Shown: piece after piece, positions 20,828-52,720 of the stretch | Numbering within the stretch: the stretch's first letter is position 1 | Layout: each line of letters starts with the position of its first letter | Assembly (NCBI RefSeq): GCF_014217805.1 | Contig: NZ_CP055156.1 | Span: 4,036,585 to 4,100,584, forward strand | Direction: 5' to 3' | Source: Adhaeribacter swui | GTDB lineage: Bacteria; Bacteroidota; Bacteroidia; Cytophagales; Hymenobacteraceae | Length of the DNA: 64,000 nucleotides | Made by a program: the position numbers and the translations under genes | The notes under the pieces: generated by a model | Database searches by the model: none | Told to the model about the DNA's origin: nothing | Seen by the model: the letters and a program-made list of their open reading frames with translations, nothing else

Positions 20828-20863
20828 GTCCTTTAGAAAGTACCTGGTCTAGGTTAATTTTAG
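20828..20863 (+). promoter_or_regulatory. Late-type bipartite promoter, copy 1
   Basis: GTCCTTTAG (20828-20836) and TAATTTTA-like -7 at 20855-20862, 27 nt apart, 21 nt before the gene at 20884. Most divergent of the eight copies (TAG in place of TCT). Confidence 0.5.
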
Positions 20864-20883
20864 TATATTCAAGACCAGGATAT

Positions 20884-21474
20884 ATGCAGACGACGCCTAC
20901 GGCTCAGGTAAAGAAACCTGAAAAAAAAATTACCCTTTTTATACCCGTTAAATCTTACGTTCAAAAATACTTGGTAAAACGCTACGGCAGTTTATACACC
21001 GTTAGTAAGCGCGATGCCATAGGTATTGTTTTGTTTCAAATGCTGCGCCGGCCTTCCACCGAGGCCCGGGCTACGGAACGCATTAAAACTTACACGGCCA
21101 AATATCCGGTGGTACTATCGCCCAAAGATTTCTGGAAGCGCGGCTGTCGCAATCTGGATGATGCCATGAGCATTGAATGGCACAAGCTGGTAGAAGATTT
21201 GATTTACCAGGAATACTGCGGTTACATTGAAAATTTAGAGGCACACGGGGTGGAGCAACGCTACGCCATTGAAGCCTTTATGGCCAAGTATGATTTTGAT
21301 GAAACGGATATAAAATTCGAAACCATTAAAAAAGCATACCAGCGCTTCCGGGTAGAACAAACTAAACTTGGAATATTACCAATTAAGGTTTCAGACATTC
21401 TTCCCTACCTTTGTGCCTTAAATATGCTCGGCTCACGTAAAAAAATAAAAAAGGTTGTGAAATCGGCGGCCTAG
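20884..21474 (+). CDS. Hypothetical protein, candidate late-gene regulator
   Basis: 196 residues, basic. A Lys-rich N-terminal tail and VSKRDAIGIVLFQMLRR suggest nucleic-acid binding; the rest is helical (KDFWKRGCRNLDDAMSIEWHKLVEDLIYQEYCGYIENLEAHGVEQRYAIEAFMAKYDFDETDI) with a basic end KKIKKVVK. No family recognised. It lies alone between the early genes and the structural genes and has its own copy of the late-type promoter motif, the place where a phage late activator usually sits. That role is inference. Confidence 0.45.
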   Translation: MQTTPTAQVKKPEKKITLFIPVKSYVQKYLVKRYGSLYTVSKRDAIGIVLFQMLRRPSTEARATERIKTYTAKYPVVLSPKDFWKRGCRNLDDAMSIEWHKLVEDLIYQEYCGYIENLEAHGVEQRYAIEAFMAKYDFDETDIKFETIKKAYQRFRVEQTKLGILPIKVSDILPYLCALNMLGSRKKIKKVVKSAA

Positions 21475-21627
21475 TGGTTCCGCATTTGTCCCGTAAAAAG
21501 ACTACTTTACTTGCAATGGTTCCGGAGTAGCTTCGGGTAAGTTTTTCTTTTGATTAAACTGCGCTTACGAAAATTTACTTAATTCGGTTGTACAAAAAAT
21601 TATAGCCCCTTATTCCCTTTATTTCTC

Positions 21628-21662
21628 GTCCTATCTAACGGCTATAGGCCCACTTACTTTTG
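21628..21662 (+). promoter_or_regulatory. Late-type bipartite promoter, copy 2
   Basis: GTCCTATCT (21628-21636) and TACTTTTG (21655-21662, exact TAnnTTTG), 27 nt apart, ahead of the tail/receptor-binding gene block starting at 21681. Confidence 0.7.
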
Positions 21663-21680
21663 CAGAGAGTAAGTGGCACC

Positions 21681-22319
21681 ATGAAAAACATTGAGCAGAT
21701 TACGGATGATAACTTGGGTGGCCTGGCCGTGTGCTTTTACACCGACTGGGACAATATTGATTTTACCCGGTTTCCCAAACTTGATGGCTTACGCTTAATC
21801 GGCGATATTTTCCTGAAGGAAGGTGCTACCTGGGGCATGCTGGTTTTTACTTCCAAAACGGCCGGCTATTCCCAACCTACCAAGCAGGACCGGCGCGGTA
21901 CCATTTACCCGCACGAAATCAAAGGCTTTATTCCCCGGGAAACACCAGAGTTAGCGGCGCATTTATTTGAAATGAATACGCAACGCCGGTACGCCGTGCT
22001 GCACCGCGATCATAACGGCTTCATGCGCCTGAGCGGTGGTCCAGATTACGGCCTTAAGTTCGAGAGTAAATTTAATACGCAGGATTCACCCGATGGCCGC
22101 AATGGCTCCACGGCTAGCTTCAAAGCCGATAGCTTAATGCCGGCACTATTTTACTCTGGCCAGGTAACGGCCACCGATCCGGTAACGCCACCAAGCCAGG
22201 AGCCTAGTGGTTATGTGCGCTTTGAGAAAGGCAATGGCGAACTTATCGCCCTGGTGCCGGCCGGCAGCACCTTCCAAATTCGCTCTGGTTTCAATTTTGG
22301 TTTTAGAATTCTTTCCTAA
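21681..22319 (+). CDS. Phage structural protein of unknown role
   Basis: 212 residues from ATG at 21681; the seven-codon upstream extension starts on a TTG inside the promoter. Features include LGGLAVCFYTDWDNIDFTRFP, a charged loop, and a strand-rich C-terminus ending RSGFNFGFRILS. It starts a block of five genes joined by TAATG or near overlaps, and resembles small structural proteins at the head of tail-fibre operons. No named family. Confidence 0.5.
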   Translation: MKNIEQITDDNLGGLAVCFYTDWDNIDFTRFPKLDGLRLIGDIFLKEGATWGMLVFTSKTAGYSQPTKQDRRGTIYPHEIKGFIPRETPELAAHLFEMNTQRRYAVLHRDHNGFMRLSGGPDYGLKFESKFNTQDSPDGRNGSTASFKADSLMPALFYSGQVTATDPVTPPSQEPSGYVRFEKGNGELIALVPAGSTFQIRSGFNFGFRILS

Positions 22320-29420: not shown

Positions 29421-29453
29421 TAAAACACCTCTCTTTGGGAGGTGTTTTTTTTT
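29421..29453 (+). terminator. Terminator after the fibre/depolymerase block
   Basis: A 9-bp stem AAACACCTC with its complement around a short loop, followed by nine T residues. The next late promoter begins directly in the T run. Confidence 0.88.
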
Positions 29454-29488
29454 GTCCTTTCCATGGTGCTTCCCTGACCTAATCTTTG
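29454..29488 (+). promoter_or_regulatory. Late-type bipartite promoter, copy 3
   Basis: GTCCTTTCC (29454-29462) and TAATCTTTG (29480-29488), 26 nt apart, 20 nt before the head-protease gene. Confidence 0.7.
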
Positions 29489-29508
29489 CATCGAACAATT
29501 AAGTAACG

Positions 29509-30861
29509 ATGCAAGTCAACCGCATACTTTCTGCTGTCCTATCTCAAGCCTGGCTGATAGATCCCATCGCCGCCGAAGGGCTGCTGCCTATAGTAGTAAA
29601 CATGCTCAAGCAGGGTGCTCCGGCTCAGCTGGGTGAGGAGCCAGAAGAAAGTGAGAGTACCAAGCCTTATGCCCTGGCTTTTGTAAACGGCGTTTCCGTG
29701 GATGCGAAAGCCAGTACCATGATGAGTTACAGTAGCTACGATGACGCGCCGGCCGGATCCATTGCGGTAACGACCGTTTCCGGCACCATGATGCGCAACG
29801 ACTACTGCGGCTCGCCTGGTACCAATACCTTGGGCCAGCGCATTAAAGAAGCTGATGCGCATCCGAATATTGGCGCTCACCTGGTACGCTTTAATACGCC
29901 GGGAGGTACCGTGGACGGTACCGAAGCTTTTGCTTCTATCATCGGGCAAACGCAAAAACCGCTCGTAGCATTCGCTGAATCCATGTGTTCGGCGGGTTAT
30001 TGGGCCGGATCTGGCGCTAACCTGATTGTGGCCGCTGGTAAAACGGCCGGTGTGGGCAGCATTGGCACCATGATCAGCCTGGCCAGCTTTGATAAATATT
30101 ACAAAGAAATCGGCATCGAAGTCCATAATATCCGGGCCACCAAGTCTCGAGATAAAAACCAGGGCTATTACGAGGCCATGGAAGGCAAATACGAAAAGCT
30201 CCGGACCGAAAGCCTGGATCCCATCAATGAAGCTTTCCTGAGCTCCGTGCAAGAAAACCGGGAAGGCAAATTAAATCTTAAAAAAGAAGACGTCCTGACG
30301 GGCAAAGTTTATTACGGTCAAAGTATCGTGGATGTCGGCTTAGCCGATGAAATCGGAAACTTTGATTACGCGGTTCGCCGGGCGCAGGAACTCGCCCAGG
30401 ACCATTCCTCCAGCAACCAAACCTCCATCCATAACCAAGAAATGAGCATTTTTTCTAAAAACAAATTTCCGAAGCTGAGTGCTTTAGCCGGCAAAAAATC
30501 GGAAGAAATCACCGCCGAAGACATTCAGGCCGTGAACGAAGAGCTAACCGCAGCTGGTATTGAAAACGCGGGTGTTATCTCGGCCGCGCAGTTAACTGCT
30601 TTTGAAGCAGCTGAAAAGGATGTTACCCGGTTAACCGCCGAGAACAAGACTTTAACCACTGCTAATACCAAATTGACTACTGATTTGGAAGCGGCCAATA
30701 AAGAAGTTACCCGTTTAGGTGCCTTGGATGGCGCTACTCCAACTGGAACACCGAAAGCTGGTAACGAAATGGGCGAAGAGTCAGCCGATGATGAAAATCA
30801 GAAGTTGATTGATGCTTTACCGCACAACCAGGCTTTAGCCGGTAACCCGCTTTTTAACTAG
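29509..30861 (+). CDS. S49-family prohead protease with scaffold-like C-terminus
   Basis: 450 residues. Residues about 80-300 are an S49 (SppA/phage protein C) serine protease: IAVTTVSGTMMRND, HLVRFNTPGGTV, AFAESMCSAGYWAGSGA (nucleophile Ser region) and GVGSIGTMISLASFDKYYKEIGI. The remaining 140 are helical, acidic and Glu/Thr-rich (LTAFEAAEKDVTRLTAENKTLTTANTKL), like a scaffolding protein. An internal ATG at 30442 (MSIFSKNKFPKL) could start a separate scaffold, as in lambda C/Nu3. It cleaves head proteins during capsid maturation. Confidence 0.82.
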   Translation: MQVNRILSAVLSQAWLIDPIAAEGLLPIVVNMLKQGAPAQLGEEPEESESTKPYALAFVNGVSVDAKASTMMSYSSYDDAPAGSIAVTTVSGTMMRNDYCGSPGTNTLGQRIKEADAHPNIGAHLVRFNTPGGTVDGTEAFASIIGQTQKPLVAFAESMCSAGYWAGSGANLIVAAGKTAGVGSIGTMISLASFDKYYKEIGIEVHNIRATKSRDKNQGYYEAMEGKYEKLRTESLDPINEAFLSSVQENREGKLNLKKEDVLTGKVYYGQSIVDVGLADEIGNFDYAVRRAQELAQDHSSSNQTSIHNQEMSIFSKNKFPKLSALAGKKSEEITAEDIQAVNEELTAAGIENAGVISAAQLTAFEAAEKDVTRLTAENKTLTTANTKLTTDLEAANKEVTRLGALDGATPTGTPKAGNEMGEESADDENQKLIDALPHNQALAGNPLFN

Positions 30862-30911
30862 AACAAACCAACCAACTATTAAAACAATTAATCACCCTTC
30901 ATCTAGCAAAA

Positions 30912-31862
30912 ATGAATATTGCAGACATTAAAGCCGAGTTCGGGGCATACTACCTGAATAACGGTCAGAACTTAGCTCGTTTGTTTAAGTTGCTGAACAT
31001 TACTTCTGTTACCGATTCGGTTTTAACGCCAATCAAAACAGATGAAACAGTATGGCAGGCTTCAAAAGCTTCTATAGGCCGGGTTTTACAACCATTCCAG
31101 AAGGCTTGGACGCCGATTGGTCAAGCGGAATTTAAGCCGTTGAGCATTCAACAGTTTAAAATGAAGATTGACTCGCAGGAGTATCCGGATGATCTGGAAG
31201 CTTCCTGGTTAGGTTTCTTAGCCGGCGAAGGCATCGATCGGAAATCATGGCCATTTGTCCGCTGGTTCGTGGAAACTTTATTAATTCCGCAAGCAGCCGA
31301 GGATTACGAGTTAAATGAGGTATTTAAAGGCGTTCGCGTGGAGCCGACTGCCGGCACCGCTGGTGCTGCAGGTACTTCGATGAACGGTTTACGGAAAGCC
31401 ATCAATGATAACATTACGGCTGGCCGGATCACGCCGATTGTTACCGGTGCGCTATCTTCCGATAACAAAACCTTAGTGGAGCAATTCGAAACTTTTGTGG
31501 ATGCCATTAACCTGCGTTACCAGCACATCCCCATGCAGTTGTGCGTGCAGCCATCGGTGGAGCGTCGCTTTCACCGGGGATACCGGGCTTTGTACGGTAA
31601 AGATACCGATTATAAAGGTTCTAACGGTTCCGTGGACTTCTCCAACATTACCATTATTGGTTTACCGTCGATGATTGGTTCTAATAAAATCTGGTGTACA
31701 CCGAAAGGCAATGCCATTCACATGGGCAAGCGCACCCAGAATAAGAATTCCGTGCAGATTGAAAACGTAGATCGTTTGATCAAAATGTACTCTGACTGGA
31801 GCTCCGGAGTTGGTTTTATCCTGCCGGAAGTTGTGTTTACCAACGATCAGGATCTGACCTAG
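30912..31862 (+). CDS. Putative major capsid protein
   Basis: 316 residues, placed directly after the protease/scaffold gene where the major capsid gene normally lies. It has a helical N-terminus (IADIKAEFGAYYLNNGQNLARLFKLL), an Ala/Gly-rich loop at about 150-162, and a strand-rich C-terminal half with YQHIPMQLCVQPSVERRFHRGYRALYG. This fits an HK97-fold coat protein of the Bacteroidota siphovirus type, though no short motif proves it. Confidence 0.65.
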   Translation: MNIADIKAEFGAYYLNNGQNLARLFKLLNITSVTDSVLTPIKTDETVWQASKASIGRVLQPFQKAWTPIGQAEFKPLSIQQFKMKIDSQEYPDDLEASWLGFLAGEGIDRKSWPFVRWFVETLLIPQAAEDYELNEVFKGVRVEPTAGTAGAAGTSMNGLRKAINDNITAGRITPIVTGALSSDNKTLVEQFETFVDAINLRYQHIPMQLCVQPSVERRFHRGYRALYGKDTDYKGSNGSVDFSNITIIGLPSMIGSNKIWCTPKGNAIHMGKRTQNKNSVQIENVDRLIKMYSDWSSGVGFILPEVVFTNDQDLT

Positions 31863-31910
31863 TCAGATCCTTTACTCATGTTTCATATTTAAAATAAGGA
31901 GAAAATAAAA

Positions 31911-32219: not shown

Positions 32220-32249
32220 TCACCATTAAGTAGAAAGGAAACCGAAATA

Positions 32250-32798: not shown

Positions 32799-32841
32799 AC
32801 CTAAAAGCAACAATAACTTTTTTCATAACTTTACTTTTACT

Positions 32842-32871
32842 AAAGCCTGGCCGTTGGACCAGGCTTTTTTT
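32842..32871 (+). terminator. Terminator after the head block
   Basis: A 9-bp perfect stem (32842-32850 with 32859-32867), then seven T residues, immediately followed by the next late promoter. Confidence 0.85.
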
Positions 32872-32873
32872 AC

Positions 32874-32908: not shown

Positions 32909-32912
32909 AAGC

Positions 32913-40461: not shown

Positions 40462-40462
40462 C

Positions 40463-40876: not shown

Positions 40877-40879
40877 ACC

Positions 40880-41254: not shown

Positions 41255-41753
41255 AAAGCATTGGCGCAAACCAATGGTTTCTATTCCTTTCTTACTTATT
41301 CTTTGCTTAACCGTGCAGTTCTGGTTTAGAACCCCTTCGGTACCAGAAGTAAAAAAGGTAACTAAAACCAGAGTAGTCACCAAAAAGAAAGCAGCTCCGG
41401 TAGTAAAGCTTGAGCAGCTGCCGGATAAACCCAAAAAGCTGGAGGTCTATACCAAGCCGGACACGGTTCGGCGTCAGGCCATGGAAAAGGGAACGCTGGT
41501 AAGTGGCGTGAAGCTTCAGAATAAAAAGCTAGTAGTACACCGAATCTCGCCCAAGGGAATAACTGAAGTCAGTACCTTCACCGCTAAAGATTTACCATCG
41601 CTGGCCATCGCCATAGATTCAGCTGGCCAGGTGAATGTGCAACTGGATCCGAAGGAAGCTCGCCGGCAGCGCCGTAAAAGAGTGTGGCGCAAAATTGGCA
41701 ATGGGGTTGTAGTGGTTGCTGCTTTTGTGGCGGGGGTACTGCTGGTTAATTAA
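41217..41753 (+). CDS. Putative spanin-like membrane protein
   Basis: 178 residues with an N-terminal membrane helix (IPFLLILCLTVQFWF, about 24-38), a Lys/Pro-rich stalk, a compact strand region, and a second hydrophobic segment at the very C-terminus (VVVVAAFVAGVLLV). Two membrane anchors separated by a periplasm-spanning domain recall unimolecular spanins, which fuse the membranes in Gram-negative lysis. Inferred from topology and position after the holin. Confidence 0.5.
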   Translation: MNKLIQNWLLAIKKHWRKPMVSIPFLLILCLTVQFWFRTPSVPEVKKVTKTRVVTKKKAAPVVKLEQLPDKPKKLEVYTKPDTVRRQAMEKGTLVSGVKLQNKKLVVHRISPKGITEVSTFTAKDLPSLAIAIDSAGQVNVQLDPKEARRQRRKRVWRKIGNGVVVVAAFVAGVLLVN

Positions 41754-42000
41754 GTTTTTTAATGCCATATTGTTGAAATAAGGGTGGCACCCAGAAATTT
41801 ATTGTTAAGCGCTATAAGGTCACGGAGTCAACGTTAAGCAACTGGATTAAAAAATAAAATGGTTAGAATTTTGATTTTAAGTTGATTTTTTTGCTCCTTT
41901 GAAATGCGAACTAATTAGTGGAACAGATGCCACTTGAAAACTATCTGTAAAGTTTAAGGTGGCAATTGTATTTTATAGGAAAGACGTTTCTATAACGATA
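41754..42000. other. Non-coding leader of the structured region
   Basis: AT-rich with no good frame. It contains an imperfect hairpin with TGCCAC near 41928 and GTGGCA near 41968, and an isolated GCGAACTAA near 41905 that echoes the arms of the pseudoknot downstream. Confidence 0.4.
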
Positions 42001-42121
42001 GCATTGCCCGTAAGGAAGGAGTGGGTTCCCAGTAATGGCCCAGATTAAACCACTAGTTTAGTTCGCAGCTCCGACTCCTTACGGGCAATGTGCTTTAAAA
42101 ACATTACCATGCGAACTAAAC
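42001..42121 (+). ncRNA. Large potential H-type pseudoknot between lysis and tail genes
   Basis: Arm A at 42002-42016 (CATTGCCCGTAAGGA) is perfectly complementary to 42076-42090, 15 bp. Arm B GTTTAGTTCGCA (42056-42067) is perfectly complementary to 42110-42121, 12 bp. B starts inside the loop of A and closes outside it, so the two helices together make an H-type pseudoknot. There is no T run, so it is not a simple terminator. Possible roles: structured ncRNA, mRNA stability element, or packaging/recognition signal. Confidence 0.5.
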
Positions 42122-42218
42122 AAAACACCTCCACAAAAATCCTAGCCCCACTTGGCAATTGGCATTTATTTCCTAAAGAGAAATTTAGAACAGTTCACGC
42201 TCAGCAATCCATTGTATC

Positions 42219-42497
42219 ATGAGCATCTCGGTCAAAAATGAAAATGGCCAGGTGATCATTACCATTAAGGATCAGCCGCAGCTCACTGAACAGACCCTCG
42301 GCGCTTTAGTAGAATTTATTGACCAGGTAGAAGACCCCAATTATCTTTTAAATTATTTAGCTAATTTGGAAGCTACCGCTCTTATTTATGATCCATCGAG
42401 TCGGGATAAATGGGAGAAAGAATTTGATTTAATGCAGTACCTCCGCGATTTTTTAACGGTGATACGGAGGCATCAGGATCCTAGTACTAGTTTATAA
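42219..42497 (+). CDS. Hypothetical acidic phage protein
   Basis: 92 residues, acidic: ISVKNENGQVIITIKDQPQLTEQTLGALVEFIDQVEDPNYLLNYLANLEAT. It begins 98 nt after the pseudoknot. No family recognised. Confidence 0.5.
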   Translation: MSISVKNENGQVIITIKDQPQLTEQTLGALVEFIDQVEDPNYLLNYLANLEATALIYDPSSRDKWEKEFDLMQYLRDFLTVIRRHQDPSTSL

Positions 42498-42511
42498 ATA
42501 GTTTAATATTA

Positions 42512-42913
42512 ATGGAAACAAAAGATTATTTACCTCTAGCCACTGCTTTTGTAGCTTTAATCGCCATCTTTTCTTCTTATTATTTGCTGTCTAAACAGAT
42601 TTTAAAAAATAAGCGATCAGCATGGATTGAAGATTTTAGAAAGGAAATAGCTAATTATTATACTTTGGCAATTTCAATAAAGCGTGATTCCAGTGATGAT
42701 GATTTAATAAAGATTACAAATAGTTCTGTACTTATAATAATGCTATTAGATATTAAAAGGCCCAAACAAAAAGCCTTTGAAACATTTATTGCTTCCACTA
42801 CTAGTTACGTGATTAATCATGATTATAAAGGATTTGATGATTTGGCAAAAACATTAAAAAAAGTCCTAGATGATGCTAGATCAATAATTGATGACGAATT
42901 TAAAAGATTATAG
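42512..42913 (+). CDS. Hypothetical single-helix membrane protein
   Basis: 133 residues with an N-terminal membrane helix (ATAFVALIAIFSSYYLL, about 9-25) followed by a helical cytoplasmic domain (SAWIEDFRKEIANYYTLAISIKRD). Topology and composition resemble small host proteins that accompany defence or stress genes; its AT-rich codons differ from the virion genes. It may be cargo. Followed by a strong terminator. Confidence 0.5.
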   Translation: METKDYLPLATAFVALIAIFSSYYLLSKQILKNKRSAWIEDFRKEIANYYTLAISIKRDSSDDDLIKITNSSVLIIMLLDIKRPKQKAFETFIASTTSYVINHDYKGFDDLAKTLKKVLDDARSIIDDEFKRL

Positions 42914-42920
42914 TGCTTTA

Positions 42921-42951
42921 AAAACTGCGGCTAATATCAGCCGCAGTTTTT
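42921..42951 (+). terminator. Terminator before the tail operon
   Basis: A 12-bp perfect stem, AAAACTGCGGCT with its complement, around a 6-nt AT-rich loop, ending in T residues. Confidence 0.85.
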
Positions 42952-42986
42952 AATACTTATCTTCTATACCCCTTCTATTCATTTAT

Positions 42987-43021
42987 GTCCTTTCTATAGG
43001 TTAGCGCCCTGCTGAACTTCG
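42987..43021 (+). promoter_or_regulatory. Late-type bipartite promoter, copy 6
   Basis: GTCCTTTCT (42987-42995) and a weaker -7 TGAACTTCG (43013-43021), 26 nt apart, upstream of the tail operon at 43041. Confidence 0.65.
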
Positions 43022-43040
43022 CATAGTAATCTCCCTTACT

Positions 43041-43847
43041 ATGCACTTGGTAGAATTAAAATACGAGAATAAGCACCTTAAAAAGCAAGTTCCGGCTTCC
43101 TGGAACGAACTCACCAGCAAGCAGCTGCTCCGGGTGGTGACCGCATTACTCACCATTCGTAATAAATCGCAGCTAAAATTTAACCTGGTTGAAATCCTGC
43201 TGCAGGTAAAAACTTCTTTTTTGATCCTCTGCTCCGATGAGCAGCTGGTAAACCTAATCCGGCTCACCCGGTTTGTCACTTCTGGCGGTTTGCTAACCAA
43301 GCAATTGCTGCCAGTAGTTTCGGTAGGCAAATGGCGCAAGTTTTACGGTCCAGCCTCTAACTTCCGGAACCTGCTCTTTTTAGAGTTCATCTTTGCCGAC
43401 ACCTACTTCATTGCCTGGTCAAAAAAACAAAACGAGGAGCTGCTGAATAAATTCATAGCCTGCCTATACCGGGAACGCACCTGGTTCCACTTTGTCAAGA
43501 AAAACCTGGCCAGCTACACCGGCGATAATCGCCAGGCTTTTAACTCGCACCTGGTCGCCGATCGGGCTCAGCATATTTCTAAACTGCCTCCGGAAGTAAA
43601 GCAAGCCATTGTGCTCTGGTACCGGGGCTGCCGGCAGGAGCTGGAGAAAAACTTCCCACTGGTTTTTTCTGGCGATAACCAGGATAAAGCCCAGAAAAGT
43701 GGCTGGGATGATGTGTTGCGGCACATTGCCGGCAACGTCCACCAGGTAGAGGCTACTGGCCAGGCGATGGCCCGGAATGTTTTTGCCTTTATGGAAGATA
43801 AGCTGGATCAAGCGGAACAAGCACGAAACAAAAACCAAAGATTCTAA
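43041..43847 (+). CDS. Putative tail-assembly protein
   Basis: 268 residues, helical and basic, opening LVELKYENKHLKKQVPASWNELTSKQLLRVVTALL, the start seen in tail-assembly or head-tail proteins of Bacteroidota phages. First gene of the tail operon; TAATG overlap with the next gene. No motif defines its exact role. Confidence 0.5.
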   Translation: MHLVELKYENKHLKKQVPASWNELTSKQLLRVVTALLTIRNKSQLKFNLVEILLQVKTSFLILCSDEQLVNLIRLTRFVTSGGLLTKQLLPVVSVGKWRKFYGPASNFRNLLFLEFIFADTYFIAWSKKQNEELLNKFIACLYRERTWFHFVKKNLASYTGDNRQAFNSHLVADRAQHISKLPPEVKQAIVLWYRGCRQELEKNFPLVFSGDNQDKAQKSGWDDVLRHIAGNVHQVEATGQAMARNVFAFMEDKLDQAEQARNKNQRF

Positions 43848-44380
43848 TGAGAATAAAAGAATACACCACTCTCTTTCGGGAGCTGGCCAGCCGGCACGTG
43901 GATATCCGGCATACGGATAAAGAATGCCGGTTTATGCGAGCAACCTTAAGTGCAGATGGGCTAGGCCGCCACCTGGATTTAAAAGAATTGTATGATAGTC
44001 TCCGGACGAAATTAAAGTCAGGGTATTTTCTGGTGCTCCAATCTTATGAGATCGATTTCGAGGACAATGTTTCCGACAACCTGAAGAAAATATTTCATGG
44101 AGCCATTATCGTACTTGGCAAAGCTAAAACCGGCGATTACGACGGGCAGGAAGAAGTGCTCGATCGCACGGAGGAAATCGGCGAAGACATTATGGGAGCC
44201 GTGCTGCACCGGTGGCAAACGGATTTTACCCCGCCCATTAAAGTGATATCCGCCCGGGATATTACCTCCGAGAAAGTTGGGCCTGTAGGCGACAATTTTT
44301 TTGGTACCCGCTTTAATTTTTCTTTTTCGGAAGCTGCTAATGGAGCTTTAAAACACAAACCTTCTAAATTCTTAAATTAA
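43847..44380 (+). CDS. Hypothetical tail protein
   Basis: 177 residues with a helical first half and an acidic middle (LGKAKTGDYDGQEEVLDRTEEIGEDIMGAVLHRW). The C-terminus is strand-like (VGDNFFGTRFNFSFSEAANGAL). Linked by TAATG overlaps to both neighbours, so it is part of the virion assembly operon. Function unknown. Confidence 0.5.
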   Translation: MRIKEYTTLFRELASRHVDIRHTDKECRFMRATLSADGLGRHLDLKELYDSLRTKLKSGYFLVLQSYEIDFEDNVSDNLKKIFHGAIIVLGKAKTGDYDGQEEVLDRTEEIGEDIMGAVLHRWQTDFTPPIKVISARDITSEKVGPVGDNFFGTRFNFSFSEAANGALKHKPSKFLN

Positions 44381-46404
44381 TGGCCAATAAAGCTTCCTTA
44401 ACTTTTAGTTTTCGACATAATAGCCTGCAAGTAGGCCAATACGTGGAGTTGCGGTTGTTTGGTAATGTGGTCCGCTTTACGGGAGCCACCGTTACCGACA
44501 CTGCCAACCGCCAATTTAAAGTAACCTCCGGCGCCGGACCGGCCGCCATTGCTTTGCAGCAAATCATTCAGGATTACATTGCGGCCAGTGGTGCGGGCAA
44601 GTACACGGTAGAATATTTTCAGGAAGGAGATGGGCCAAGCTCCGAAAACCCCGATGGTTATTGGATTTATATTTTTGTGGTTCAAGCCACGGAGCTGGGT
44701 TCGGCTTACAACTTCACCGGCAGCACCGTTTCCGGTACAACCTGGGTGATCGGCTACACCGATTCCCGTGCCGAATTTTTATCGGCCACTTATACAACTA
44801 GCCTGGTAAAATGCTTTAGTGGCAGCTCCGGTGCCATTGCTGTTACCGTTACGGGCGGAGAAGGACCTTTTACCTTTTTGTGGGCCGATGGTCCTACCAC
44901 TAAAGATCGCGACTTATTGCCTGCCGGCACTTATCAACTTTTAATTAAAGATGGTACCGGCCAGGATTATTCTTTAACGGCGGAGGTAGGCCAAAACCCT
45001 CGGATCGAAGTCCAGGTGATTAAAGGTGATGGCACCTTAGCACTAAATGTTTCGGGAGGCGTAGCGCCTTACACCTATTTGTGGGAAGACGGCAGCACCG
45101 GATCCTCCCGGGAGAATGTTAGTTACGGGGAGTACTCCTGTATCGTAACTGATTCTTTAGGGTGCCAGGTAGAGGTGCCGATTAATTTTGATAAAGAACG
45201 TTTTTTCTTTTCCCGCAATCCGGTTACCCTGGAGCTGGAGGCCGATGAGCTGGAGTTAAAACCAAACCTGACCTTCTTGTGCGAAGTCTGGCTGGAAAAA
45301 GTTTATCTATCCGGTAACTTCGAAAAAATAACCGAGGATCCTTTGGAGCACCCGGCCGACAGCGATGGTAAAACCATTTTTAACGTGCGCCGGCTTCTGG
45401 ATGCGTACCTGGAGCCGCACTTTCCGGAGTTTAAACAGAACACGATTAGCCGGGCCGATAGTTGTTTTAAACGCTTTTACCTGAAGCACACCGAGAAGTT
45501 TGGCAACCCTCCGGTACCTTCTTCCTTTAGCCAAATAGACTACCGGTACGTGTTGATCGGTGGCCTGGACTGGCCGGAGCATTACGCGCAAACCTATTTT
45601 GAAAGCTATTTGCCCCAGCGCCAGCCTTTCTTTACCTGGGATTTACCTACTAAGGCCGTGTTCCCGGATCAACCGGAATACCTGTACTTTATGCCCCTGA
45701 GTATGCTGACTACCAGCTTCACGGTTAAGGCTAAAGTAAATTACCGGGGCGAAGCGCCTGTCACCTACGATTTATTTACCCAGGAAAACATCAACCGATT
45801 TGAGTTGTACTGCGTGCCAGCCGGCCATGACTTGCTGGATTTAGCGGGTAAAAGGCCTGGCAGTACTATCCTGGGCTGGGATATCTACGTGGTAGATCAG
45901 GCCGGCACCCAGATTTCCGAAACCCGGCGCTACGAATTGGACCAGCGCTATTTTCGCCAAAAACGCTACTTGTTGTACACTAACAGCATTGGCGGCATCA
46001 ATACCATTGCGGCTCTCGGCGAAGGCAAAAGTAAGCTGGATCCGGATGTGCAGCAGCTCGAACGCATTATTACGCCGGACTTTAATCCGGCCCGGGGCGA
46101 AGTGGCCATCACGGATAAATACTTGAAGCCCTCCCTGGAGCTTACTACCGGTTACCGGACCCGGAAGGAAATAGCCAGTTTAACGGATTTTGTGCTCGCC
46201 CGGGAGGCCCGGCTCTTTGGCCGTGATCGGTACCAGGCCGGGACTTTCGTTGCTAAAAACGTGGTGCTGGATGATGAAAGCGAAGACTTTAATTACATCG
46301 ATTTTGAGTTTATGCTGGCCAAGCAATACAACTACACGCCGCAGCTAAAGCTGGCCGGCTACCTGGATGAGACGCCCACCACTGACCCGCGCGAACCATG
46401 GTAG
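44380..46404 (+). CDS. Tail protein carrying SprB-type repeats
   Basis: 674 residues. Residues about 145-275 contain two repeats of the SprB/gliding-adhesin type: VKCFSGSSGAIAVTVTGGEGPFTFLWADG ... LPAGTYQLLIKDG, then GVAPYTYLWEDGSTGSSRENVSYGEYSCIVTDSLGC. These otherwise occur in large secreted Bacteroidota adhesins. The rest is beta-rich structural sequence. It overlaps the following gene by 7 nt. Probably a baseplate or central tail protein that contacts the cell surface. Confidence 0.68.
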   Translation: MANKASLTFSFRHNSLQVGQYVELRLFGNVVRFTGATVTDTANRQFKVTSGAGPAAIALQQIIQDYIAASGAGKYTVEYFQEGDGPSSENPDGYWIYIFVVQATELGSAYNFTGSTVSGTTWVIGYTDSRAEFLSATYTTSLVKCFSGSSGAIAVTVTGGEGPFTFLWADGPTTKDRDLLPAGTYQLLIKDGTGQDYSLTAEVGQNPRIEVQVIKGDGTLALNVSGGVAPYTYLWEDGSTGSSRENVSYGEYSCIVTDSLGCQVEVPINFDKERFFFSRNPVTLELEADELELKPNLTFLCEVWLEKVYLSGNFEKITEDPLEHPADSDGKTIFNVRRLLDAYLEPHFPEFKQNTISRADSCFKRFYLKHTEKFGNPPVPSSFSQIDYRYVLIGGLDWPEHYAQTYFESYLPQRQPFFTWDLPTKAVFPDQPEYLYFMPLSMLTTSFTVKAKVNYRGEAPVTYDLFTQENINRFELYCVPAGHDLLDLAGKRPGSTILGWDIYVVDQAGTQISETRRYELDQRYFRQKRYLLYTNSIGGINTIAALGEGKSKLDPDVQQLERIITPDFNPARGEVAITDKYLKPSLELTTGYRTRKEIASLTDFVLAREARLFGRDRYQAGTFVAKNVVLDDESEDFNYIDFEFMLAKQYNYTPQLKLAGYLDETPTTDPREPW

Positions 46405-47837
46405 GATACCGGATAAATAAAACCTGGCTGGATTTACCTCCGGACTTGAGCGTGCAAATGGAAATCTATAATCCGCTGTTTCAAACAGATTACATTCCCG
46501 GCTCGCTCACGTACCCGTTTAATTTGCCGGCCGACAGCAAACTCAATCAGCGGGAGCTTTCCTTCCCGGGAGAGCTGGCGGTGAGCCGCTACAGTAAGAA
46601 GTTTTTCTCGGCGCAAATGTATTTAATGGATCAGCTCTGGCGGGTAGGAAAACTCAATGTGCTGAAAAAAGTTAAAGATTACAGCGTCAATTTTCAAACC
46701 GATATCGGCGACATCGAGAGCCGGTTGAAAGAAGACAATCTGCGGGACTTGAATCTGGGTACCGCTCCCCTGAGCATGCAGCCGGCTGATATTTATCCGG
46801 GTAGTTTGTACGCCTTATTTCCGCTGAAAAATCCGGGTTTTTACGACGGTAAAAAAGAAACTTTTGGCAAGTACCTGAATTATTACGCGGATGGTTTTCC
46901 AGTAGCTAGTGGCATTCATACCCAAACGCCTTTTCCTTACCTGGTGCACGTGCTGTACCAGGTAATGGCGCATTATGGCTACCGCATTCAGGGAGCCTGG
47001 CTGGAAGAAGAGTCTACCCGGCGTCTGGTGATCTATAATAACCAGGTTCCTGCTGGTGCTCCTTTCCCGATCAACCGGCACGTTCCGGATATGAAGGTAA
47101 ACGAGTTTTTGCGGGCGGTTCGGTCGCTGCTGGGCTTGGGATTTATTTTTAATACCACCGCCAAAATAATGCAAGTGGTTAAGCTTAAGGATGTACTCCG
47201 GAGCACCGCTTACGTGGACTGGACCTCGCGTGCCAAGCCCTCTTACGAGTGGGAACCGAATCTCACCAATGGCTTTACGCTCAAGCAAGAGCCGGATGGC
47301 AGTGATGAAATTTATAAAACGCAGCCATCTGGCTTTGGTACTTTCAAAGTAGGAGCGGCCAAAGAAGAAATTACTTACCCGGCCGGCACCTTGCCTACCC
47401 TTTTTCAAGCCGATGAATTAAATACTTCCCGGCAGTGGCTCGTGCCCCAGGCTAATCAAAAAGGGAGTACCCTGGAGATGGATATCGGGGAAAATAAATT
47501 TGCGCTACGCCTGCTTTCTTACGCCGGCATGCAGCCTGACTCCCAAGGCAACTTATATCCGCAGGGTACCAACGCGCCGCTGGTCTGGGATGGTCCGGAT
47601 GGGCTTTACAACCAGGCGCACAAAGAATGGATCGAGTTTCGCGGCACGACGGAGTTGGTGGAAGCCAAGATCAATTTTACGATCGAAGATTTGCTGCGAC
47701 TCAAACCCGATTTAAAAGCCATGATTCGCTACGAAGATGGTACCATCAAAGCGCTGTGGGAAAAAATCACGCTCGGCATTAACAACAAAACCGGCATCCA
47801 GGAAGCCAAAGTCTCCTTGTTTAAAGTGCCATTTTAA
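46398..47837 (+). CDS. Putative baseplate/tail protein
   Basis: 479 residues, beta-rich with many aromatic residues: WLDLPPDLSVQMEIYNPLFQTDYIPGSLTYPFNLPADSKLNQ near the start and FLRAVRSLLGLGFIFNTTAKIMQVVKLKDVLRSTAYVDWTSRA in the middle. The LGLGFIFNTTAKIMQVV part resembles hub/late-control-type phage proteins. Overlaps its upstream neighbour. Confidence 0.55.
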   Translation: MVGYRINKTWLDLPPDLSVQMEIYNPLFQTDYIPGSLTYPFNLPADSKLNQRELSFPGELAVSRYSKKFFSAQMYLMDQLWRVGKLNVLKKVKDYSVNFQTDIGDIESRLKEDNLRDLNLGTAPLSMQPADIYPGSLYALFPLKNPGFYDGKKETFGKYLNYYADGFPVASGIHTQTPFPYLVHVLYQVMAHYGYRIQGAWLEEESTRRLVIYNNQVPAGAPFPINRHVPDMKVNEFLRAVRSLLGLGFIFNTTAKIMQVVKLKDVLRSTAYVDWTSRAKPSYEWEPNLTNGFTLKQEPDGSDEIYKTQPSGFGTFKVGAAKEEITYPAGTLPTLFQADELNTSRQWLVPQANQKGSTLEMDIGENKFALRLLSYAGMQPDSQGNLYPQGTNAPLVWDGPDGLYNQAHKEWIEFRGTTELVEAKINFTIEDLLRLKPDLKAMIRYEDGTIKALWEKITLGINNKTGIQEAKVSLFKVPF

Positions 47838-47839
47838 GT

Positions 47840-48274
47840 ATGAAAACACAAAAACAAACGGCCGAAGAGTGGCTCGTTTTCGCGATTGAAAACTGGAAGA
47901 AAGAGCTCACTCGTTTACGAGCCCGCGATACCGATGAGCTTTTTAACAGCTTCCACGGCAACGTGATCGAGCAGGCGGGAGGCGAACGGATTAAAGTCGA
48001 GATTGCCTACGCCTGGTACGGCCAGATGGTCGATATGGGAGTGGGCCGGGGTACCCGTTCCGGCGAGCAAAAGGACCAGGCCACCGAGCGTAAGTTGATC
48101 GGCCGCTACAAAGGCAACCGACGCCAGGCTAAAAAATGGTACAGCGGCAAAAACCGCAACAGTATTGGCTACCAGACTTCGCGCCTGGGGCAGCTGATGC
48201 AAGAAATAATGGTAATGGCCGCCACCGAGAAAGTGGCCGGCAGCAAAAATCAAAAAATTGTAGTGAATTTTTAA
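47840..48274 (+). CDS. Tail-completion-like protein
   Basis: 144 residues, basic: EEWLVFAIENWKKELTRLRARDTDELFNSFHGNVI, EIAYAWYGQMVDMGVGRGTRSG, and an Arg/Lys-rich RYKGNRRQAKKWYSGKN. The YxWYGQMVDMGVGRG stretch recalls HK97 gp10-type tail-completion proteins. Placed just before the tape measure gene. Confidence 0.55.
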   Translation: MKTQKQTAEEWLVFAIENWKKELTRLRARDTDELFNSFHGNVIEQAGGERIKVEIAYAWYGQMVDMGVGRGTRSGEQKDQATERKLIGRYKGNRRQAKKWYSGKNRNSIGYQTSRLGQLMQEIMVMAATEKVAGSKNQKIVVNF

Positions 48275-51238
48275 ATGGCAACGACAAAAGAACAACGCAT
48301 CGTTGAAATTATTATCAACGGGCAGCAGGCCAATGCTTCCTTAAAAGAAATGAACGCGGCCGCCGCCGTGATGTGGAACCAGCTGCAGAAAATGGGCAAG
48401 GATGATCCCGGCCGGGCGCAACTCAAAAAGGATTTCCAGCAGCTCAAAGAAAATATTAAAGATACCAAGGATGAAATGCTTGGCCTGGAGAAAAACTCCC
48501 TGATGGCCAAACTTGGTTTAAACGGCGTTACCTCCGCTACCGGTTTGCTGAAGGCTGGATTTCAAGCGGCCGTGGCGGCATTTCTGCCTTTGTTGGCGCT
48601 GGACGGTTTAATCGAGTTAGCGAAGGGGTTTCTGGGTTTAGTGGACCACGTCGATGAGGTCCGGGGTAGTATTTCCAGTTTGACCGGCGAGCAGGGAGCG
48701 GCGCTCGATGGCTTATACGTGCAGGTGGAAGCCATCTCCAAAACTTTTGATAAAGACTGGAACGAGGTGATGCGGGCCGGCAACGTGGTGGCCAAAGAGT
48801 TCGGTATTTCTAACGAGCAGGCCTTTGAGTTAATTGAAAAAGGAATCCTGGCCGGAGCTGATGCGAACGGTGATTTCCTGGAACAGCTATCCGAGTACTC
48901 CACCCAATTTGCCACGGCCGGCGCTTCCGCCGAAGACTTTGTGGCGGTTTTAGCCAAGGGTGCCAATGAAGGTATTTTCTCCGATAAAGCGGCCGATACC
49001 GTGAAAGAATTTGGCCTCCGGATCCGGGAGCAAACCAAAGCTACCGGCGAGGCTCTGGATGCCGCATTTGGCCAGGCTTTTACCGATAAAATTTTTAAAG
49101 GTATTAATGACGGTAGTATGACTACCGTCGAAGCGCTGAAGCTGGTGAGTACCGAAATGAACAACACTACTATTCCGGCCAGTGCTTTGCAAACGGTAGT
49201 AGCGGACGTTTTTGGTGGACCTGGTGAAGATGCGGGTATCGAGTTTTTGAAAAGCCTGAAAGATCTGGGTGGCGAAATTGACTCCATGATCGATAAAAAT
49301 AATATTCTTACTTCCGCGCAGATTGATCAACTGGATGCCGAGAAGCAACTGGCGGCCGCGCAGGCAGCCCTTGGTGCTACTTTCTCCGGTACCGGATCCA
49401 CCATCGATTGGTTAATGACGGTTACCAAAGCCTGGCTTTTAAATGCCGTAGCTTGGGCCATTAATGACATGAAAGGCCTCCGGAATGCCGTAGTGGGTGT
49501 TTGGGATGCCATCAAAAGTTTAGGATCCAGCTTCGGCGCGATGTGGGATGCTTTTAAAAATGGTGATTTCTCCGGAATTAAAAAGGCTTTTTCGGATATG
49601 GGTACCAATGCTTCCAAAGCCTACCGGGAAGGCTATAACCATTATGATAAAATTGCGGCCGAAGACAAACTAAAATTAGAAAAGCAGGAGCACGAAAAAT
49701 CGGCCAAGCAGGCGGAGGAGCTTCGAAAAGATCAGGCAGAAAAAACCAGGAAGGAGAAAGAAAAAGAAGCCGACAAAGCGGCCAAAGAAGCTGAACGGAA
49801 ATTAAAAGAGCAACGCGCCAAGGAAAAGCAGGCCCGGGAGCAATTTGAAAAAGAAGAAGAAAAGGCGGCGCTGGAGCTGGCTAAACTTAAGATTGATGTC
49901 ATGGCCGATGGCCTGGATAAAACGCTGGCCAAACTTCGCTTAGCCAATGAGCTGGAGCTGAAGGAAATGGAAAAGCACCGGGATAAAGTGGTAAAAAGTG
50001 CGGTCACTACCCAGGCAGAAAAAGATGCGGCCATTGCCCGGTTTGAAGAGCAGAAAACAGCCAAAGCTCAGGAGCTGGCTAACCAGGAAGCCGCAGCGCG
50101 TAAAAAAGATGAAGATCTGCAGAAAAGTAAAAATCAGAAGTCGAAAGATGAGCAGCTGAAAGAACTGGATGAAAAAGCTGTTATAGCGGCCGAGAGTATT
50201 GAAAATGAGTACCTGCAAAAACAGGCAGCGCTGGATGGCCAGGTGGTCCGGACGATTGAAGCCGAACAGATTCGGGATATGGCATTGTTGGAACAAAAGA
50301 ACGCCACGGCAGCTGCTAAACTTGCCGCATTGGAAGCCGCTGGCCAAGGGGAATCAGCGCAGGCCTTAAAGTTAAAAAATGAAGTCTTGCGCCACGATTC
50401 CGAGCGCACCGCGAAAATGCGTGACAATGAGGAAAAGCTTACCAAAGTAAAAAGTGACCTGGCCCGCATGCAGATCGGCAAAGCGCAGGAGGCTATCCAG
50501 ACCGGTATTGATTTGTTGGGCAAAGATACGGCTGCCCGGAAAGTGGCTGTAACCGCGCACAAAGCTTTTAGCTTAGGTAAAATTGCGGTAGATCTTCGGG
50601 AAGAAATCCAGGCCATCTGGAAGCACGCCAACCAAAACCCCATGAACGCCTTAATTCCCGGATCCGGTAACATTATTGCCGGCGTGCAAACGGCACTGGC
50701 AATTGGCCGGGCTGTAAAGAGTACCAAAGAAGTTACTGCACAGCAATTTTACGCCGGTGGTATGACCAAAAAAGATGGCAATCCGGCCCTTATTAAAATG
50801 ATGGAGCGCAATGGTATCTGGGAAATGGCCAGTGGCCAGAGTGGCGGCAGTATCGGGGCTTTTGCGGAAGGAGGCATGGTAAATGAAGCCCGCCTCGGGC
50901 TGATCGGGGAGAAAGGAGCGGAGCTCGTGATTCCGAACTGGATGATCAAGTCGCCCAAATATGCCAATACAGTAGCCTACCTGGAGGCGGAGCGCCAAAA
51001 AGGCGTAACGGCTTTTGCCACCGGTGGCCCAACCTCGGAAACTTCCCTGCCGGCACCGCGTCCAGTGGAAGAAAACCAGGGCTATACTCCTTACGAACAA
51101 GCCATGCTCAGCCGTTTGGATTCACTTACTGATGAAATTAAGGCCTGGCCTACCAAGCTGCAGGTTTATAATGATGTGGGGCAAACGCAGGAAAAGCTGG
51201 AGCTTTTAAATGAAATTCGGGAAATGTCACGCGGGTAA
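48275..51238 (+). CDS. Tail tape measure protein
   Basis: 987 residues, the longest gene. Helical throughout: residues about 15-80 coiled coil, two hydrophobic segments (LLKAGFQAAVAAFLPLLALDGLIELAKGFLGL near 85-117), a PhageMin_Tail-like region (VMRAGNVVAKEFGISNEQAFELIEKGILAGADANGDFLEQLSEYSTQFATAGASAEDF), then a very long Lys/Glu/Ala coiled coil (470-720) and a compact end with AEGGMVNEARLGLIGEKGAELVIPNWM typical of phage tape measures. It sets tail length. Confidence 0.9.
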   Translation: MATTKEQRIVEIIINGQQANASLKEMNAAAAVMWNQLQKMGKDDPGRAQLKKDFQQLKENIKDTKDEMLGLEKNSLMAKLGLNGVTSATGLLKAGFQAAVAAFLPLLALDGLIELAKGFLGLVDHVDEVRGSISSLTGEQGAALDGLYVQVEAISKTFDKDWNEVMRAGNVVAKEFGISNEQAFELIEKGILAGADANGDFLEQLSEYSTQFATAGASAEDFVAVLAKGANEGIFSDKAADTVKEFGLRIREQTKATGEALDAAFGQAFTDKIFKGINDGSMTTVEALKLVSTEMNNTTIPASALQTVVADVFGGPGEDAGIEFLKSLKDLGGEIDSMIDKNNILTSAQIDQLDAEKQLAAAQAALGATFSGTGSTIDWLMTVTKAWLLNAVAWAINDMKGLRNAVVGVWDAIKSLGSSFGAMWDAFKNGDFSGIKKAFSDMGTNASKAYREGYNHYDKIAAEDKLKLEKQEHEKSAKQAEELRKDQAEKTRKEKEKEADKAAKEAERKLKEQRAKEKQAREQFEKEEEKAALELAKLKIDVMADGLDKTLAKLRLANELELKEMEKHRDKVVKSAVTTQAEKDAAIARFEEQKTAKAQELANQEAAARKKDEDLQKSKNQKSKDEQLKELDEKAVIAAESIENEYLQKQAALDGQVVRTIEAEQIRDMALLEQKNATAAAKLAALEAAGQGESAQALKLKNEVLRHDSERTAKMRDNEEKLTKVKSDLARMQIGKAQEAIQTGIDLLGKDTAARKVAVTAHKAFSLGKIAVDLREEIQAIWKHANQNPMNALIPGSGNIIAGVQTALAIGRAVKSTKEVTAQQFYAGGMTKKDGNPALIKMMERNGIWEMASGQSGGSIGAFAEGGMVNEARLGLIGEKGAELVIPNWMIKSPKYANTVAYLEAERQKGVTAFATGGPTSETSLPAPRPVEENQGYTPYEQAMLSRLDSLTDEIKAWPTKLQVYNDVGQTQEKLELLNEIREMSRG

Positions 51239-51243
51239 GTTTT

Positions 51244-51277
51244 GTCCTTTCTGCCGGCAGTTCTTTCATGATTTTTG
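51244..51277 (+). promoter_or_regulatory. Late-type bipartite promoter, copy 7
   Basis: GTCCTTTCT (51244-51252) and TGATTTTTG (51269-51277), 25-26 nt apart. The sequence continues GCCGGC after the first box and AAACATTCACTA further down, both shared with copy 8. Confidence 0.72.
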
Positions 51278-51319
51278 GATTCTGAAACATTCACTAACCA
51301 TTTAATCATTTAAGAACCA

Positions 51320-52672
51320 ATGGATTTAAAAAGTATTTTAGCCATCATTGTGGCCTTTTTCACCGGCAAATCAGACCAGGAAAAAGCGGAAGTGGCCAAG
51401 CAAATTCAGGATACCCTCCAGGAGCAACTTAAGCCGCAACCGCCCAAAGTAGTGCCTCAGCCACCGGTAACCCCCGAGCCTAAGCCCGAGCCACCGAAAG
51501 CCCCAACTGGCCAAATTAGTGGTTTAACCACTAACCCCAACCGCTTAAACAGTAACAAAGAGGCGGCCAAAAAAGGGGACAAGTTAATGCAGAAAGCCAT
51601 TAACAATGTTATCAAACTAGGTCAGGATTGGCTGAATCAAAAAGTGAGTTACGTAACGGAAAAGACCAAGCTTATCCCGGGCGTAAAAGACAGCTTGCAT
51701 TATTTTATGTCAATGGCCCCTTATTGGCATTTAATTAAAGGCGAGTGGGTAAGGAAAGATGCACAAGCGAACGGCATTTCAGAAGCTATCGGGGACGTTA
51801 CCAGGTTGCAAAAACAATTAATGCCGGCCGTAGAAAATTTATCCAAAGCCTACGTGGCCACCGATGACCAAAACTTAAAAGATAAGTTTGCTAAACGAGT
51901 AATTGATATCTGCACCAGCTTTTTCCTGGATAGTAAAACGGGTATGATGCCAAGTTTTATTTACGCGAACGCTGTACCAGGTCAAGTAAGAGTGGAAAGT
52001 GCTGTTGAGGGACGTCCCTTTATTATAGTGGCTAATTGGCTGTTATTTTTACAGGATAGTAAATTTTATACAGAAGCTTTCCGGAAAGGCATGCAGAAAT
52101 GGTTTGCCGATTTAGCCTACTGGTTAGAATTTAGTGCCACTGGCAAAAAAGCCAATGAAGAAACTGTTGGTAATATTGCTTCGATTTACGAAGCTCAGCT
52201 GGTAGCATTTAATGCTTTTGGAGGCAACATGGATTACGCTGCCAAAAGGCGCGCAAAGGCAATTGCCAGACTATTCCACGATATAGCGCCAGACGGCGGG
52301 CTGCCGGAGGAAAAGAAAAGGGTAAAAGCTTTTATGTATCACTGTAAAGCCATCGATGCCATTTATCTATGTGCCCGGATTTACAACAGCTTGGGGCAAG
52401 GAATCTGGTATGAAGAGCGGAGTGGTAAAATGCCTTTGTTAGAAGTTATCCGCTACATGCTGCCGTACTTCATGGGTAAAAAACGTTTTAATAATAGCGA
52501 GAAAATAACTTACTCTTATTTTGTTCAACCGCTTAGAACCGCATTGTTGGTATACGAGAAGTATTTAACCCAGCAGGAAAAGAAGGATATAAATACGATT
52601 CTGGAAAAAAACGATCCTATCAGAGACGGTGCCCCAGACTTATTTGATGAACCTTTCCTGGATTGGCGCTAA
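51320..52672 (+). CDS. Second alginate-lyase-fold protein, degenerate active site
   Basis: 450 residues. The N-terminus is hydrophobic (MDLKSILAIIVAFFTG) and is followed by a Pro-rich linker (38-63), then an alpha/alpha domain like alginate lyase: PYWHLIKGEWVRKDAQANGIS (134-154), FFLDSKTGMMPSFIYANAVPG (201-221) and EETVGNIASIYEAQ (280-293) where catalytic lyases have an Asn-His. It shares this plan with the protein at 27597. It is a monocistronic unit with its own late promoter, and may be a glycan-binding or altered-specificity enzyme exported or loaded on the virion. Confidence 0.62.
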   Translation: MDLKSILAIIVAFFTGKSDQEKAEVAKQIQDTLQEQLKPQPPKVVPQPPVTPEPKPEPPKAPTGQISGLTTNPNRLNSNKEAAKKGDKLMQKAINNVIKLGQDWLNQKVSYVTEKTKLIPGVKDSLHYFMSMAPYWHLIKGEWVRKDAQANGISEAIGDVTRLQKQLMPAVENLSKAYVATDDQNLKDKFAKRVIDICTSFFLDSKTGMMPSFIYANAVPGQVRVESAVEGRPFIIVANWLLFLQDSKFYTEAFRKGMQKWFADLAYWLEFSATGKKANEETVGNIASIYEAQLVAFNAFGGNMDYAAKRRAKAIARLFHDIAPDGGLPEEKKRVKAFMYHCKAIDAIYLCARIYNSLGQGIWYEERSGKMPLLEVIRYMLPYFMGKKRFNNSEKITYSYFVQPLRTALLVYEKYLTQQEKKDINTILEKNDPIRDGAPDLFDEPFLDWR

Positions 52673-52686
52673 GCAGCTTATTTCTT

Positions 52687-52720
52687 GTCCTTTCTGCCGG
52701 CTAGTTTTTCTGGATTTTTA
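52687..52720 (+). promoter_or_regulatory. Late-type bipartite promoter, copy 8
   Basis: GTCCTTTCT (52687-52695) and GGATTTTTA (52712-52720), 25 nt apart. Extended similarity to copy 7 indicates that the two promoter regions are duplicates. Confidence 0.68.

Follow-up and report, generated by a model that had tools for sequence, protein, structure and literature searches.

We analysed a 64,000-nucleotide stretch of the Adhaeribacter swui genome (contig NZ_CP055156.1, positions 4,036,585 to 4,100,584, forward strand), hereafter the window, which contains a prophage of approximately 44 kb. Eight two-part, promoter-like elements lie within this prophage, the first of them ahead of the gene for a 196-residue protein that we call R. 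A first-pass annotation of the DNA had placed the eight copies at 20828, 21628, 29454, 32874, 37725, 42987, 51244 and 52687, all pointing rightwards and each upstream of a gene block; all of these positions are correct, the rightward orientation holds in 8/8, and an open reading frame (ORF) lies downstream of each copy (8/8). The elements and the genes around them are listed below, with N18 or N17 denoting the spacer between the upstream box and the -7 box.

10510–54637 (no strand): prophage, ~44 kb; 25-bp direct repeat at 10510–10534 and 54613–54637, the right copy overlapping tRNA-Pro (54614–54688)
20828–20862 (+): R promoter, GTCCTTTAG N18 TAATTTTA; predicted +1 at 20867, ATG of R at 20884
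20884–21474 (+): gene R, candidate late activator, 196 amino acids (aa); in 21/21 related prophages, no described family
21485–21492 (+): TTTGTCCC element, 10 nt past the R stop codon
21628–21662 (+): late box, GTCCTATCT N18 TACTTTTG; predicted +1 at 21667, ATG at 21681
21681–22319 (+): 212-aa protein, neighbour of R; in 21/21 relatives
29454–29488 (+): late box, GTCCTTTCC N18 AATCTTTG (in register); predicted +1 at 29493; precedes the head maturation protease
29488–29512 (+): inverted repeat GCATCG/CGATGC; upstream arm begins in the -7 box, downstream arm contains the ATG
29509–30861: head maturation protease, downstream of the 29454 box
32874–32908 (+): late box, GTCCTTTCT N18 GAAATTTG; ATG 32913 is the predicted +1 (predicted leaderless)
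37725–37759 (+): late box, GTCCTTTCT N18 GAAATTTG; ATG 37764 is the predicted +1 (predicted leaderless)
38096–39442: portal, the gene next after the 37764 ORF
42987–43021 (+): late box, GTCCTTTCT N18 GAACTTCG; predicted +1 at 43026; precedes the block 43041–51238
43021–43044 (+): inverted repeat GCATAGTAA/TTACTATGC; contains the ATG
48275–51238: tape measure gene, inside the block 43041–51238
51244–51277 (+): late box, GTCCTTTCT N17 GATTTTTG; predicted +1 at 51282, ORF ATG at 51320
52687–52720 (+): late box, GTCCTTTCT N17 GATTTTTA; predicted +1 at 52725, ORF ATG at 52760

The upstream box reads GTCCTTTCT exactly in 5/8 copies; the copy at 29454 ends in CC, that at 21628 differs by one change and that at 20828 by two, in agreement with the variation first described. 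A -7-like box was confirmed 17–18 nt past each copy. The spacer between the upstream box (9 nt) and the -7 box (8 nt) is 18 nt in six copies (20828, 21628, 29454, 32874, 37725 and 42987) and 17 nt in two (51244 and 52687), and all eight match a GTC box, 17–18 nt and NAnnTTYG on the late strand, with 0–2 changes in the box and 0–1 in the -7 element. The upstream half had been described as unlike the usual -33 element, and TTTG is indeed absent from the box in 8/8 copies. Three copies lie just after a terminator, again as reported: terminator-like hairpins at 29422–29448, 32842–32867 and 42918–42953 end 5, 6 and 33 nt upstream of the boxes at 29454, 32874 and 42987, respectively.

Pairing of the box with a -7 element

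The decisive test of the pairing is a count across related phages, 171 sites against 1. The stretches compared came from two sources. Of 204 genomes in the host's family, 48 (counting that of the window) have a relative of the terminase (35370–37076); regions of ~40 kb round the terminase from 20 of them, together with 60 kb from genome G003, gave 21 related prophages. Scanning viral contigs with the terminase yielded no relatives, and alignment of the head protease, used in its place, collected 60 viral contigs. Of these 60 loci, 26 (L087–L111 and L115), chosen after their carriage of boxes had been seen, entered the set, with 4 removed as duplicates of the 21 regions. In the resulting 44 related phage stretches (1.30 Mb, window's own included), the pattern GTCYTTTNN + NANNTTYR, which imposes GTCYTTT and did not discover it, occurs with a spacer of 18 nt at 171 late-strand sites versus 1 on the opposite strand, and with any other spacer from 10 to 26 nt at no more than 3 sites on either strand. 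In the unselected 60 viral loci, the counts at spacer 18 are 79 (+) and 0 (-), with other spacers giving at most 2; the 34 loci outside the comparative set hold 0 sites at this spacer. At least two sites are present in 42/44 stretches and none in L107 and L115. T reaches a frequency of 0.67–0.83 at positions -6 to -3 upstream of the box in the 44 stretches, and this T run, judged by eye, is the tail of a terminator in many copies. Phage-specific extensions also stand upstream of the box: most G190 and G183 copies have ACCCT there, and those of Mea-Yong (L147) have ACACGCT.

Within the window, the upstream half alone gives 18 matches at up to one mismatch, versus 13.2 (standard deviation 3.3) in shuffled sequence, where 9/100 shuffles reach 18; the box alone is thus too common, and too near chance, to serve as evidence. 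Its exact form GTCCTTTCT has 16 copies in the 6.2-Mb host genome, 5 of them inside the 44-kb prophage. The pair (box with up to two changes, -7 with up to one) matches the window beyond the eight copies only at 9925, 60877 and 39746. Scanning the host genome with the two-block motif, as the first-pass annotation had proposed, and with the backwards pattern as control, yielded the exact pair three times, 3/3 in the prophage, and 0 control matches. A loose pair (GTCCTTT + NANNTTTG, spacer 18) occurs 4 times in the host genome, 3 of them in the prophage, versus 7 for the control; this count goes against the pairing, and the loose pattern was rejected as a genome-wide marker. A sigma-70 promoter scan, left unused, showed no excess over shuffles (25 vs 30.8 and 24 vs 24.6). 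The description of the motif as prophage-specific holds within this host; the system is also found in Hymenobacteraceae prophages and in several cultured flavobacterial phages. On these comparisons of sequence, the boxes are real and conserved and probably form a class of late promoters, known in kind and new in its parts.

The -7 half had been called the ordinary Bacteroidota box, a description that does not quite fit. AnnTT(T/C)G is kept, whereas the leading T of TAnnTTTG is mostly missing from the late boxes: it is present in 4/144 boxes away from R versus 14/22 boxes before R (p 1e-11), the latter having been located with a looser box rule than the other 144. The Bacteroidota primary-sigma promoter has TAnnTTTG at -7 and TTTG near -33 (PMC7366714). 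The late boxes resemble it in their NAnnTTTG half and overall spacing; they differ in carrying the GTC box where TTTG stands and in mostly lacking the first T of the -7 element. The boxes of the remote phages L115, FPSV-F7 and laban6 are without any TTT at that place.

Protein R as candidate reader of the boxes

A late promoter read by host sigma together with a phage activator, one of two options raised in the annotation, is the reading that best fits the sequence, with R as the candidate activator. The other option, a modified polymerase, found no support: a PHROGs scan of 40 prophage ORFs, out of 50 ORFs listed, returned no phage-encoded polymerase gene and no family of polymerases or sigma factors. 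It is by its place, not by exclusion, that R leads the candidate readers. Of 50 window ORFs, 11 occur in all 21 relatives. Nine of them lie within 29509–46404, several (including 32913–33545) having no known function; R and the adjacent 212-aa gene, whose product we take for a virion protein, are the only universally kept ORFs upstream of the nine.

In their best segments, the R proteins of relatives are 25–80% identical. For the window's own R, no family was found in PHROGs (E 0.001), Pfam (E 1) or NCBIfam (0.1), and the 21 R proteins gave only scattered weak matches in Pfam, NCBIfam and PHROGs, the best at E 0.0045 in one member; phrog_21888, which has no function given, weakly matches 4/21 (best E 0.0077). 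The PDB holds no relative of R by profile or by fold (best fold match E 2.1). An AlphaFold2 model based on the 21 sequences (pLDDT 83, pTM 0.73) shows a small alpha-beta region at the N-terminus, followed towards the C-terminus by three helices (93–120, 125–135 and 145–162), which could, as a guess, form a helix-turn-helix. A viral fold library gave one match below E 0.001, the 157-aa Leef_1 protein A0A8E5EBJ1, which we take for Leef1_39, a 157-aa protein encoded upstream of head genes and found by the R profile (E 1e-17). The R profile also found homologues in Mea-Yong (QXN68052) and FPSV-F7 (5722–6258), and, with these three added, laban6 gp042 (8e-16) and Ingeline1_41 (4e-6). In the G003 prophage, R (L016:14460–14939) contains an in-frame stop, or an assembly error; the late boxes are still present there, and a second, island-borne copy in the same genome is open.

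The boxes occur where R occurs. Co-occurrence was scored in the 39/60 viral loci that extend 4.5 kb or more upstream, where two or more boxes are present in 19/20 loci with R, the exception being L102 with one box, versus 0/19 without R (Fisher 3e-10, a value that ignores shared descent). Among the 204 family genomes, the 43 with R have a mean of 5.02 pattern matches versus 2.16 for the backwards control, and the 161 without R have 1.03 versus 2.29. Applied alone to the viral collection, a longer DNA pattern fetched 42 stretches from 34 contigs; 14 of these contigs were already among the protease-aligned loci and 11 others carry genes of the group.

The box also varies with R. Partial Mantel tests of box positions 4–9 against R distance, given the distance of another gene and GC content (37 phages each), gave r 0.23 given the protease (p 0.001), 0.33 given the 212-aa gene (p 0.0005), 0.21 given the terminase (p 0.0025), 0.15 given the 32913 gene (p 0.027) and 0.25 given the major capsid protein (p 0.0005). 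None of these five genes tracks the box once R distance is removed. The same analysis of the -7 box was positive for R, yet the protease stays positive given R (core set, r 0.14, p 0.0036), and it was not used. In remote phages, each with an R homologue, GTC and the geometry are kept and the rest of the box is altered: with one -7 mismatch permitted, we counted GTCCTA at four sites in L115, GTCTTAA at six sites with spacer 17 in FPSV-F7, GTCACAA at five sites with spacer 18 in laban6, GTCCTTTTA at five sites in Ingeline, and GTCCTTT at three sites in Leef and four in Mea-Yong, one of the latter on the opposite strand.

Several observations weigh against R as the reader, or against the strength of its link to the boxes. 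The phages are related by descent, so that the co-occurrence of R and boxes is not independent. Pattern matches are not above control in 15/43 genomes with R, the Luteirhabdus locus L158 has R (3.6e-26) and only two stray box matches with no series, and 9/34 pattern-fetched contigs have no gene of the phage group within the piece examined. Given the 32913 gene, the correlation of R with the box is at its weakest (r 0.15, p 0.027), and R is not the sole unexplained universal gene, the 212-aa gene and 32913–33545 being likewise present in 21/21. No DNA-binding domain is recognised in R, and by the looser rule no box was found at its own promoter in 16/38 phages. Among the remote phages, GTCTTAA of FPSV-F7 also occurs 3 times at spacer 16, once at 18 and twice at 19, and GTCACAA of laban6 twice at 19; the altered boxes of L115, FPSV-F7 and laban6 were first spotted by eye and then counted.

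On balance, we assign a probability of roughly 0.7 to a late-promoter regulon served by host polymerase and primary sigma, with R as the most likely reader. Host RNA polymerase with the primary sigma would open the degraded -7 box ([C/G]AnnTTTG), while R would recognise the TGTCYTTT box, which lies around -39 to -31, and replace the missing -33 contact. R would be made first from its own copy, which has the host-like TAnnTTTG, and may regulate itself; because the R boxes keep the host T at -7, R could be made without R. Every late block would then have its own start, several right on the terminator of the preceding block. Our confidence in R as reader is slightly lowered because the 32913 gene is a second conserved gene without known function. 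The boxes might instead be read by a different product of the phage (the 212-aa neighbour, the 32913 protein or that of a short early gene), with R serving otherwise. The presence of both genes in 21/21 relatives and a fold of R that the model and fold search leave without assignment would fit this view, which we nonetheless consider unlikely: with R accounted for, the box follows neither the 212-aa gene (r -0.17) nor the 32913 gene (r 0.04), an 11-kb island has R without a 212-aa homologue, and no early window ORF is common to all relatives, the early genes compared being those inside the 40-kb stretches.

Sequences at the 3' end of R bear on a further alternative. TTGTC occurs near this end in 33/38 phages (window included) versus 4.4 expected, often as a 21-bp tandem, with 65 copies versus 5.0 expected and 24/32 gaps of 20–22 bp; the repeats are coded as peptide repeats (LSQKTxx) in some phages and are non-coding in others. 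This array may be an operator array for R. It would also suit a replication initiator or partition protein binding repeats at its own 3' end, much as lambda O binds iterons within its own gene, with the late boxes sharing GTC by chance or through another factor, and islands that keep R beside a primase point the same way. Yet the late boxes vary with R and stand ahead of blocks of virion genes, and we regard this role as improbable. Still less probable, in our judgement, is that R acts as a repressor of the late promoters, sitting on the box at -39 to -31 until it is removed. A box at a polymerase contact site fits either sign, and R's own promoter has the box in 22/38 phages; against repression, the late -7 boxes are degraded and without the host TTTG, and should therefore need help rather than blocking.

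An activator acting with host sigma would have parallels. In T4 middle promoters, MotA/AsiA appropriate sigma, a MotA box centred near -30 replaces the -35 element beside a host-type -10, and a phage protein is bound adjacent to sigma region 4 (PMC6755090). The late boxes are similar in that an activator box would replace the -35 element at fixed spacing (18 nt, 171 sites; +1 position predicted). They differ in a predicted box centre of ~-35, the fixed 18-nt spacer, the degraded -7 element, their proposed use for late genes of a temperate Bacteroidota phage, and an R without described family; no MotA or AsiA homologue was found among the matches of 21 R proteins or 40 prophage ORFs. Mu C/Mor, P2 Ogr, P4 delta and ArpU/RinA are late activators, and R, as proposed, would share with them the role of a small phage protein turning on several late operons. 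The Mor/C, Ogr/Delta and ArpU families are absent from the matches of the 21 R proteins (Pfam, NCBIfam and PHROGs, E 0.1). Among the matches listed for open-access papers, no title or abstract concerns this promoter class or R, and none describes how phages of this group control their late genes.

Predicted start sites, translation and R-bearing islands

The A of NAnnTTTG is taken as -11, which places +1 at position 40 of the element. An ATG opening at least 50 codons lies within 60 nt in 153/171 sites. It stands 3–5 nt past the -7 box in 60/153, exactly 4 nt past it (the predicted +1) in 44, and 14–28 nt past it in 67/153. The class of 60 would be leaderless; in Bacteroides thetaiotaomicron, ~3.7% of 5' untranslated regions are shorter than 10 nt (PMC7366714). 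In the class of 67, sequence at the -7 box base-pairs with that around the AUG: the mean longest helix is 4.88, versus 3.93 with partners swapped (largest of 500, 4.24) and 2.90 with letters shuffled, and 16/67 sites reach merely 2 pairs. Folding gives an unpaired AUG at 0.26 in read-through RNA, versus 0.49 (p 3e-6) in RNA from the site's own promoter and 0.42 (p 3e-5) when the arm is shuffled. In many of the 67 sites, a hairpin is predicted to hide the AUG in read-through RNA only.

In the proposed scheme, transcripts would start on the AUG itself, or within a hairpin whose upstream arm exists only in read-through RNA; with this layout, mainly late-promoter transcripts should be translated well. 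In T4 genes e, soc and 49, the start codon of long early transcripts is hidden by a hairpin, and RNAs begun at the late promoter lack its 5' arm (PMC3014915). The read-through hairpin predicted here is alike in hiding the start codon, and unlike in being predicted for numerous late blocks across many phages, alongside predicted leaderless starts.

A second R, with 72% identity in G000 and 69% in G003, lies within an island of ~11 kb with a DnaG primase and an antirepressor.

G000:C3:2320210–2331352 (L154 4210–15352): island; Pfam matches to integrase and primase, CI-like repressor at 39% to that of the window
G003:C1 about 6476500–6487600 (L156): island; the piece begins downstream of the integrase/repressor position

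Comparison with window proteins found no virion genes in the islands, a search that unrelated virion genes could escape; the sole match to a window virion protein, 15074–15352 in G000, resembles 42219–42497, whose function is unassigned. The G000 island has features like those of phage-inducible chromosomal islands (PICIs): integrase, repressor, primase and no virion gene found. An island that supplies a late activator itself would be comparable to P4 delta, the use of a helper being conjectural. We offer only tentatively the wider proposal that R founds a new activator family running the whole late programme in Bacteroidota phages, that it defines a promoter class whose box drifts with R, that each late start is coupled to translation through either a leaderless AUG or a read-through hairpin, and that satellite islands carrying R could turn on the late genes of a helper, in the way that P4 delta acts on P2.

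Host promoters of this phage group differ from textbook ones. The promoter class is findable largely by pattern, has a named candidate activator and offers a natural series of R–box pairs for working out recognition; if 60/153 phage starts are leaderless, they would represent a second translation route in this phylum.

Further features of the prophage and its relatives were recorded. An integrase gene lies at 53205–54533 (-) within the prophage, and an Rfam scan found two tRNAs and nothing else; a tRNA-Met (CAT) gene is located in the early region (14082–14155). Immediately upstream of R is an amidoligase-type gene (phrog_2443, 19623–20564), whose relatives in G059, G101 and G047 belong to the late region, ~26–29 kb from the start of the stretch. 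A portal scan of genome contigs returned 2 loci, one from Rufibacter roseus and one from Luteirhabdus. Just beyond the left prophage end lies an IS3-type transposase gene with rve domains, 9018–9854 (-).

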